From Terriglobus albidus (GTDB lineage Bacteria; Acidobacteriota; Terriglobia; Terriglobales; Acidobacteriaceae), in assembly GCF_025685425.1 (NCBI RefSeq), contig NZ_JAGTAS010000032.1, positions 1-64,000 of the forward strand: a stretch of DNA of 64,000 nucleotides, written 5' to 3'. Below are positions 10,794 to 11,894 of this stretch, one piece after another. Position 1 is the stretch's first letter; each line of letters opens with the position of its first letter. The notes beneath the pieces are model-generated. The model was not told the DNA's origin. It did no database searches and saw nothing but the letters and a program-made list of their open reading frames with translations. The position numbers and the translations under genes were made by a program.

Positions 10794-10823
10794 TTGACAC
10801 CGGGCTCCGCATGAGACTAGGCT
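10794..10823 (+). promoter_or_regulatory. Predicted sigma-70 promoter of the Cys-rich leader
   Basis: TTGACA (10794-10799), 18-bp spacer, TAGGCT (10818-10823). A start point about 7 nt downstream would fall near 10830, leaving only about 6 nt before the leader ATG at 10837, that is a near-leaderless mRNA. The -35 is a consensus match, the -10 is fair. Confidence 0.5.
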
Positions 10824-10836
10824 TTGTATCAAGCTA

Positions 10837-10914
10837 ATGATCACTCGTTTCGCCAACTCCTGCATGTGCTGCTGCCGCTGCTGTTGCTGTGGCCCGATGC
10901 GGGTGTGCGAATGA
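10837..10914 (+). CDS. Cysteine-rich leader peptide (candidate attenuator uORF)
   Basis: A 25-codon ORF with nine Cys codons, including the run SCMCCCRCCCC (residues 8-18) and a Cys just before the last residue. It starts with ATG, ends with TGA, and lies 138 bp upstream of the peroxiredoxin start. There is no Shine-Dalgarno; the predicted promoter places the transcript start about 6 nt before the ATG. A hairpin with a 12-bp perfect stem (10951-10986) begins 36 nt after the stop. Known: leaderless short ORFs with poly-Cys tracts act as cysteine-responsive attenuators in mycobacteria. Inference: ribosome stalling at Cys codons under Cys-tRNA shortage could change folding of the downstream RNA and so peroxiredoxin expression. 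A tRNA-Cys gene follows the peroxiredoxin. Confidence 0.6.
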   Translation: MITRFANSCMCCCRCCCCGPMRVCE

Positions 10915-10950
10915 GCGAATCGAACTGACAAGTTCAGAGATTAGGACTCA

Positions 10951-10986
10951 GAAACCCACCCGAAGCCTGCAGGCCGGGTGGGTTTC
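10951..10986 (+). promoter_or_regulatory. Leader hairpin between Cys-rich ORF and peroxiredoxin
   Basis: GAAACCCACCCG and CGGGTGGGTTTC form a perfect 12-bp stem; the 12-nt loop itself contains GCCTGCAGGC, a self-complementary 10-mer. The 3' flank is CAAACTTTC, not a full T-run, so it may be a weak terminator, an attenuator structure or a protein site. Confidence 0.6.
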
Positions 10987-11052
10987 AAACTTTCAGCCGC
11001 TTTTTGACCCGACAGGAAAACGAACGAACTTTCAAGGAAGGAAACAAAGCAG

Positions 11053-11709
11053 ATGTCACTCCGGATCAATGACACCGCACCTGATTTCAAGGCCGAAACC
11101 TCGCAGGGCCCAATCAACTTTCACGAGTGGATCGGCGACAACTGGGCTGTGCTCTTCTCGCACCCCAAGGACTTCACTCCGGTCTGCACCACCGAGCTCG
11201 GCGCCGTAGGCGCTCTCGAGAAGGACTTCGCTGCCCGCGGCGCTAAGGTCATCGGCCTGAGCGTTGACCCGGCAGAGAGCCACAGCCGCTGGGCACGGGA
11301 CATCAAGGACGTGACCGGCGCCGATGTGAACTACCCCATCATCGCCGACACCGACCTGAAGGTGGCCAAGCTCTACGGCATGCTTCCCGCCGAAGCCGGC
11401 GATAGCTGCGAAGGCCGCACCCCGGCTGACAACGCCACCGTTCGCGTGGTCTACGTTATCGGACCCGACAAGAAGATCAAGCTGCAGCTTGCCTACCCGA
11501 TGACCACGGGCCGCAACTTCGATGAGATCCTGCGCGTTCTGGACTCCATCCAGCTCACCGCCAAGCACAAGGTTGCGACTCCGGCGAACTGGAAGCCCGG
11601 CGAAGATATCATCATCACCGGCGCTGTCTCGAACGAAGAAGCAGACAAGATCTTCCCGGGCTACAAGACCGTGAAGCCTTATCTGCGTACGGCTCCGCAG
11701 CCGAAGTAA
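11053..11709 (+). CDS. Peroxiredoxin, 1-Cys/Prx6 type
   Basis: Thiol peroxidase reducing hydrogen peroxide and organic hydroperoxides in the cytosol. Seen: 218 residues; FSHPKDFTPVCTTELGA (residues 35-51) with the peroxidatic Cys in PVCTTE; IGLSVDPAESHSRWARDI; YPIIADTDLKVAKLYGML; a long C-terminal domain with TPANWKPGEDIII typical of the Prx6/archaeal group. A further Cys near residue 119 (GDSCEGRTPADNATVR) is in the same region as in that group. Shine-Dalgarno AAGGAAGG lies about 12 nt upstream of the ATG. Upstream are the Cys-rich leader and hairpin; downstream are a hairpin (11778-11812) and tRNA-Cys. Regulation by cysteine supply is suggested but not shown. Confidence 0.93.
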   Translation: MSLRINDTAPDFKAETSQGPINFHEWIGDNWAVLFSHPKDFTPVCTTELGAVGALEKDFAARGAKVIGLSVDPAESHSRWARDIKDVTGADVNYPIIADTDLKVAKLYGMLPAEAGDSCEGRTPADNATVRVVYVIGPDKKIKLQLAYPMTTGRNFDEILRVLDSIQLTAKHKVATPANWKPGEDIIITGAVSNEEADKIFPGYKTVKPYLRTAPQPK

Positions 11710-11777
11710 TGCTTCGTGGCCGTAATGCTCCTCAGCCGGAGTAGCGCAGTTTCGTTGTAATCTGTAACAGGAAATTC

Positions 11778-11812
11778 ACTCCGCCGGGCCCTTCACTGGC
11801 GCGCGGCGGAGT
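11778..11812 (+). terminator. Hairpin between peroxiredoxin and tRNA-Cys
   Basis: ACTCCGCCG pairs with CGGCGGAGT (perfect 9 bp, 17-nt loop). It ends 6 bp before tRNA-Cys. No T-run follows, so it may be a processing or read-through structure rather than a strong terminator. Confidence 0.4.
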
Positions 11813-11818
11813 TCAAGA

Positions 11819-11894
11819 GCACCGGTGGCGAAGTGGCTAACGCGCTGGTCTGCAAAACCAGTATTCGCGGGTTCAATTCCCGCCCGGTGCTCCA
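11819..11894 (+). tRNA. tRNA-Cys (anticodon GCA)
   Basis: All cloverleaf parts are visible: acceptor GCACCGG / CCGGTGC, D arm GCGAAGTGGCTAACGC, anticodon stem CTGGT / ACCAG with loop CTGCAAA (GCA at 34-36), T arm GCGGG TTCAATT CCCGC, discriminator T as expected for tRNA-Cys, and encoded CCA. Confidence 0.97.

Follow-up and report, generated by a model that had tools for sequence, protein, structure and literature searches.

A 1-Cys peroxiredoxin gene and a second tRNA-Cys gene of Terriglobus albidus appear to form an operon controlled by a cysteine-specific, ribosome-mediated transcription attenuator, a reading to which we assign a probability of about 0.8 on comparative sequence evidence. 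The locus lies in a 64,000-nucleotide stretch of contig NZ_JAGTAS010000032.1 (positions 1 to 64,000, here called the window), with all of its elements on the + strand. A promoter-like sequence, TTGACA-N18-TAGGCT (10794–10823), can be read directly from the sequence, the two hexamers being at 10794–10799 and 10818–10823. It is followed by a leader ORF of 25 codons, nine of them for Cys (MITRFANSCMCCCRCCCCGPMRVCE, 10837–10914), which is supported by its translation and by homologous leaders. The predicted terminator hairpin (10951–10986) has 12 bp, the arms GAAACCCACCCG (10951–10962) and CGGGTGGGTTTC (10975–10986) pairing perfectly. Then come the peroxiredoxin gene (11053–11709), a second hairpin (11778–11812), which lacks a T-run and ends 6 nt before the tRNA, and the tRNA-Cys gene itself (11819–11894). 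Beyond the promoter, in the opposite orientation, is a gene for a Gfo/Idh/MocA oxidoreductase. An earlier note on this DNA had listed the promoter, the nine-Cys ORF, both hairpins, the peroxiredoxin and the tRNA-Cys on this strand, and each of them was found. A scan of the window for consensus promoters and terminators listed neither element (the -10 hexamer matches at 3 of 6 positions and the T-run is short), and comparison with Rfam at the gathering threshold gave no match except the tRNA. The overall arrangement is that of an attenuator, a short ORF with a run of regulatory codons ahead of a structural gene.

A search of 60 genomes of the family with the peroxiredoxin gave matches in 33, and 30 loci (L003–L032) were examined for two features together, a Cys-dense upstream ORF (three or more Cys within 8 codons) and a CCCACC...GG(T/C)GGG hairpin. 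The earlier note had proposed looking for the Cys-rich frame at orthologous loci; it is kept at 21 of the 30, at 17 of these along with the hairpin, and the remaining nine have neither. Conservation of both elements in 17 of 30 loci rules out their chance occurrence. Named genomes gave at least 590 peroxiredoxin loci, and among the best 80 both elements were present in three (L049, L050, L055), all acidobacterial and none proteobacterial, and a Cys-dense ORF without the hairpin occurred in nine more, which represents the background. A covariance model, R1, was built from 24 aligned leader-terminator regions with the terminator as its sole structure. Matches to it were obtained in 146 of 200 genomes of the family (E ≤ 0.1) and in 38 of 396 genomes of the phylum (E ≤ 0.001), 32 of the 38 being within the family. 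A total of 111 loci were classified, and the counts below refer to the 105 within the family, which are better-scoring matches rather than a random draw. The six outside it (L227–L232) were left out of the 105. Poly-Cys leaders are found in four of these six (L229–L232) and are absent from L227 and L228. A CysK-like gene lies just downstream in L230 and a sulfite-reductase-like gene about 900 nt further on in L229 and L232, L231 being too short to show one. In L228 (G585:C27:125651-125779), from another family of the phylum, the leader-like frame MTHLYWYYWYWYAQRVGR is rich in Trp and Tyr, and is apparently a Trp/Tyr attenuator.

The leaders show signs of coding. In their last 18 codons, the leader frame of the 105 loci holds 616 Cys codons, 315 of them TGC and 301 TGT, and the two alternative frames hold 42 and 191. 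The in-frame number is greatest at codons -8 to -13 from the stop (51–81 of 105 leaders) and has a second maximum at codon -2 (61 of 105), with Cys scarce at -3 to -6 (4–12). In the window, the Cys run stops 8 codons short of the stop codon. The poly-TGC stretch could be rejected both as a chance run and as the frame of a poly-Leu signal peptide, given the excess of Cys in a single frame and the conservation of stop codon and hairpin. The ATG at 10837 is 13 nt past the -10 hexamer, so the window's transcript would carry a 5' leader of about 6 nt and the ORF would be near-leaderless. A sequence of the form TTGA[CT]-N16-19-xANNNT with an in-frame start was seen at 80 of 105 homologous loci; reckoned from predicted promoter spacing only, as for the 6 nt of the window, in 53 of the 80 the start codon is at most 3 nt from where the transcript is predicted to begin. 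By this prediction the leaders of the family would have little or no 5' untranslated RNA.

The last codons of the leader are complementary to the 5' arm of the terminator. In the window, CGGGTG in codons 22–23 (10900–10905) is the complement of CACCCG (10957–10962), which is part of that arm, and across the loci the 3' part of the leader and the terminator 5' arm make up an antiterminator that excludes the terminator. With ample Cys-tRNA, the ribosome would reach the stop codon and cover CGGGUG, and the terminator would form. If Cys-tRNA were scarce, it would stall on the Cys run, CGGGUG would pair with CACCCG, no terminator would form and RNA polymerase would continue into the peroxiredoxin and tRNA-Cys genes. 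Estimated from the size of the ribosome footprint, a ribosome whose A site holds codon 18 (10888, the last of the Cys run) would cover the RNA to about 10900 and leave CGGGUG (10900–10905) essentially free. Both states are seen in folding of the window: positions 10901–10963 fold as the antiterminator (-19.2 kcal/mol, z -3.21), and 10901–10992 as the terminator (-37.5 kcal/mol, z -4.53). The window's T-run is weak and short (GGGTTTCAAACTT). A predicted intrinsic terminator lies between leader and first gene in the window and in its relatives. The earlier note had proposed that cysteine or Cys-tRNA supply acts through the poly-Cys ORF; this reading is supported, and the mode of action can be refined to transcription attenuation with an identifiable antiterminator.

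Over the 105 loci, the duplex between leader and terminator arm has a mean z of -1.38 against composition shuffles. Eight of 24 loci fall individually below 0.05; the window is absent from these, its own 6-bp duplex being no better than shuffles (z -0.60). Matched partners from the same locus pair more strongly than mismatched ones (-15.8 vs -13.7 kcal/mol), with none of 2000 permutations as good. Since the 105 loci contain a few near-duplicates (e.g. L049/L212, L213/L214), a non-redundant set of 58 loci below 70% identity was also used, and gave -15.2 vs -13.0 kcal/mol (0 of 5000). The duplex is weak at the sulfite reductase, SsuA and rhodanese loci. Alignment A5 consists of 34 loci picked from the 1-Cys peroxiredoxin (Prx1) set, for the most part tRNA-Cys-linked. 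In its 8-pair antiterminator 85.5% of cells are paired, both sides have changed in 13 cells and the covariation score is 0.138, each value being reached by 0 of 500 shuffles, although kinship alone may lift sequences above shuffles without any structure, and two of the five pairing measures were unremarkable (reached by 27 and 348 of 500). Versions of the antiterminator slid along A5 had at most 53.4% of cells paired. Alignment A2 (24 loci) gave 69.8% paired (0 of 500) and a covariation of 0.098 (8 of 500), and in A3 (10 sequences), where the arms hardly vary, covariation of the antiterminator was no higher than in shuffles. The terminator is paired in 96.9% and 95.5% of cells in two alignments, and shows little covariation because its arms are near-invariant. 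A second small hairpin, of the TCGAA..TTCGA type, was seen by eye in the antiterminator loop of several tRNA-linked loci (L004, L049, L050, L007 and L036), and has a counterpart in the window (GAACU..AGUUC).

Alternative structures could act on translation instead, hiding or exposing the peroxiredoxin start, possibly as in mycobacteria. For the poly-Cys leaders of mycobacteria, one study (PMC1262725) reports, in its accessible part, no conserved terminator, and no hairpin was found at the cysD leader of the window's own genome. Against such translational attenuation, a T-rich tract follows the hairpin in many relatives (by eye), and the hairpin, at loci that have it, lies 33–187 nt ahead of the aligned peroxiredoxin start. 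Two loci moreover have a tRNA, an untranslated product, as the first gene. We regard translational control as unlikely, and transcription attenuation as the better account of these features.

The genes behind the attenuator in the 105 family loci are the 1-Cys peroxiredoxin (Prx1) in 75, a second peroxiredoxin (Prx2) in 14, sulfur genes in 13 and unclassified genes in three; the share of peroxiredoxins is biased upward because R1 was trained on peroxiredoxin loci. The sulfur genes, named from one representative each, are CysD (four), sulfite reductase (three) and one each of CysK, SsuA, a sulfate-binding protein, SQR, a rhodanese and YeiH. Many of the targets (CysD, sulfite reductase, CysK, SsuA, the sulfate-binding protein and tRNA-Cys) are thereby tied to the metabolism of the amino acid that would be sensed. 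In L187 and L191, the place of the tRNA-Cys behind the attenuator-linked peroxiredoxin is taken by a cysteine synthase gene.

The genome of the window has other leaders of this kind. R1 gave 17 matches there (E ≤ 10), and of eight examined besides the window's own, two were leader-like (L199, and weakly L202). The leader MVMNRIAACTCCVCCNSVCCCAVSDLA precedes a YeiH-type putative sulfate exporter, MQTAKNTCCCSAACCCV with a hairpin precedes sulfite reductase, and MRRVLTDRCCCLL (translated by eye) precedes cysD. L202 (C54:68821-68859, - strand), a weaker candidate leader, is a short three-Cys ORF accompanied by a CCCACC..GGTGGG terminator, ahead of a rhodanese gene and a gene for an SrpI-type (type 2A) encapsulin shell; perhaps a sulfur-storage compartment is under the same Cys control. 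Since Cys leaders stand before sulfur genes both in relatives and in the window's genome, cysteine is the likely signal, and the target set is most simply read as responding jointly to the supply of cysteine. The proposal that Cys-tRNA supply would tune the peroxiredoxin is strengthened by these like leaders before genes of sulfate activation, sulfite reduction and cysteine synthesis. The same genes bear on the idea that the nascent Cys-rich peptide is itself the sensor, its thiols binding metal or being oxidized and thereby altering ribosome progress, so that redox or metal stress, and not a lack of Cys-tRNA, would induce the peroxiredoxin. The presence of nine thiols among 25 residues would suit such a role, as would a peroxiredoxin behind the leader at 89 of 105 loci, a figure biased by the training of R1 on such loci. 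Yet Cys varies in number and order while the distance of the Cys cluster from the stop keeps to a fixed range, and for CysD, CysK, sulfite reductase and sulfate or sulfonate uptake the natural signal is cysteine supply. A peptide sensor is accordingly quite improbable, and decoding of Cys codons is the preferred reading.

The peroxiredoxin has the domains AhpC-TSA (PF00578) and 1-cysPrx_C (PF10417), and its closest solved relatives are the Prx6 proteins PDB 6p0w and 7kuu. Its peroxidatic Cys45, in the motif PVCTTE, is invariant in 13 of 13 aligned sequences, so that Pfam domains, structural relatives and alignment all place it with the Prx6-type (LsfA-like) 1-Cys peroxiredoxins. In a plasmid collection, 192 records match the protein, Sinorhizobium and Rhizobium being the commonest names. 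LsfA, the Prx6 of Pseudomonas, is induced by low sulfate according to the accessible text of two papers (PMC4199769, PMC12581299), and this induction is a physiological precedent for the peroxiredoxin described here, which would guard cells with a short thiol pool.

The tRNA-Cys of the window was identified by ARAGORN and by Rfam RF00005 (68.6 bits). It forms a cloverleaf with anticodon GCA and U73, and its CCA end is encoded; GCA and U73 are the main determinants of tRNA-Cys, as stated in the available part of PMC7609411. The gene is present in the locus as the earlier note had it, but is not the genome's sole tRNA-Cys; a single-copy gene was dropped as an idea, another adjoining tRNA-Gly. 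This housekeeping tRNA-Cys beside tRNA-Gly recurs in relatives: a search of 18 family genomes found the pair, or parts of it, in every one. Both kinds have the GCA anticodon and U73. The attenuator-linked and Gly-linked genes share a mean identity of 69%, against 88% and 95% within the kinds (the L159 tRNA is an outlier), and the window's copy is the divergent one. In 15 of 15 genomes there was one full-length or near-full-length match to the window tRNA (E ≤ 1e-8). A further 25 family genomes, in none of which a Prx1-tRNA pair was known, included six that matched it (E ≤ 1e-6), G026 being in both sets: those of G026 and G019 are of the second kind, those of G004, G046 and G108 of the housekeeping kind, and that of G054 lies behind the second peroxiredoxin (L190). 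In G026 the second-kind tRNA-Cys is just after a siroheme synthase-like gene (by eye). In G151, two additional copies of the tRNA-Cys 3' end (45–46 nt, G151:C1:4610646-4610691 and 4487247-4487292), at distances of about 19 and 105 kb from the complete gene, look like attachment sites of integrated elements.

At 59 of 105 loci, a tRNA-Cys gene lies downstream of the attenuator in the same orientation. By class, it is present at 49 of the 75 Prx1 loci (24 are without it and two too short), at eight of 14 Prx2 loci and at two of the three unclassified loci. At L188 and L192, the tRNA-Cys starts 55 and 80 nt past the attenuator match, without an intervening protein gene. The 46 distinct gaps between Prx1 and tRNA-Cys measure 19–178 nt (median 48.5). 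Their folds have z < -2 in 33 of 46 and about zero in a few, and the last stem is 4–8 nt before the tRNA in 33. A T-run after the last stem is found in none of the 46, which rules out the hairpin between peroxiredoxin and tRNA as a terminator. Thirteen tRNA-linked peroxiredoxin gap loci are second loci of genomes whose leader stands under another locus id (the window's, G061, G203, G493, G188, G034, G149, G151, G209, G564, G031, G047 and G017). These gap features fit co-transcription with processing by RNase P, which would excise the tRNA and leave the peroxiredoxin mRNA with the 3' hairpin (11778–11812) as a cap. Seven loci (L015, L021, L023, L026, L142, L241 and L246) also have a selenocysteine tRNA in the same orientation as the attenuator-linked Prx1 and 96–924 nt beyond it. 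Five others (L159, L162, L174, L196 and L243) have one behind the second peroxiredoxin, which in L159, L174 and L243 lies beyond the tRNA-Cys.

The tRNA-Cys may instead have its own promoter inside the peroxiredoxin gene. More radically, leader and hairpin could be a small separate transcript, with peroxiredoxin and tRNA-Cys on constitutive promoters of their own and the neighborhood accidental. The hairpin could then be an ordinary terminator, and consensus scans are unable to prove promoters either way. Such an accident is hard to reconcile with a gene order that is the same in many genomes, with Prx-tRNA gaps that are as short as 19 nt and have no T-run, and with a match of leader strand to terminator arm that makes sense as a switch; we consider it very unlikely. 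For a single attenuated operon, the feedback loop through tRNA-Cys suggested in the earlier note gains support from the same-strand linkage, the 19–178 nt gaps without a T-run and the two loci with the tRNA first. The extra tRNA-Cys would speed the decoding of Cys codons and so reset the gauge, and it may also have another use. We lean, if only somewhat, towards a further view, in which the core of the system would be a dedicated second tRNA-Cys switched by stalling in the leader, a tRNA gene governed by lack of its own charged product, with the two kinds of peroxiredoxin riding along and translation serving as a sensor of thiol or sulfur stress.

The literature consulted, which leaves out most subscription papers, describes neither such a system in Acidobacteriota nor a tRNA gene under the control of a leader peptide. 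As of 2010, according to the available part of one survey, almost no predicted attenuator in the phylum had an assigned function (PMC2965389), and the locus offers a candidate one. The rationale of the link between sulfur starvation and antioxidant defense is described as largely unexplored in the accessible text of PMC12581299; here the two would be tied by a testable RNA mechanism. The proposal also amounts to a tRNA gene regulated by a leader peptide that reads its own codon, and to an inducible second tRNA-Cys.

The classical attenuators of trp, his and phe combine regulatory codons, an antiterminator, a terminator and stall-dependent read-through. The present system differs from them in its predicted near-leaderless ORF, and in having a stress enzyme and a tRNA gene among its targets rather than a biosynthetic operon alone. 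Poly-Cys leaderless short ORFs were reportedly described in mycobacteria by Canestrari in 2020. Like that of the window, which would be near-leaderless, the mycobacterial leaders are short ORFs with a Cys run near the stop, upstream of cysteine or sulfur genes. Unlike them, the system described here has two kinds of peroxiredoxin and tRNA-Cys among its targets, and an acidobacterial host. Cys leader peptides of Actinobacteria were reported without conserved terminators in the available portion of one paper (Seliverstov 2005, PMC1262725), whereas here the terminator/antiterminator pair is clear. Two motifs are described in the accessible text of PMC8632094. PBC-28-3, which stands upstream of AhpC, is a structured motif built differently from the window's attenuator. 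LsfA is of the same peroxiredoxin type, with catalytic Cys45 and a link to sulfur starvation; it is raised in low sulfur, and an attenuator goes unmentioned in the available parts of the two papers (PMC4199769, PMC12581299). The selC* tRNA-Cys is likewise an additional tRNA-Cys with U73 and mostly a GCA anticodon but, as far as the accessible text of PMC7609411 goes, has a modified 8/4 form and comes from anaerobes of other phyla, while the window's tRNA is an ordinary 7/5 one (by eye). The other motif of PMC8632094, uORFC-8-2, which precedes cysS in Rhodobacterales, is similar in that a uORF with Cys codons and an intrinsic terminator presumably allow read-through at low Cys-tRNA and feed Cys-tRNA supply. 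As described there, its first stem contains two Cys codons in tandem, its target is a synthetase gene, and it is confined to Rhodobacterales; in the system described here the Cys run is longer, and the targets are a peroxiredoxin and the tRNA itself.
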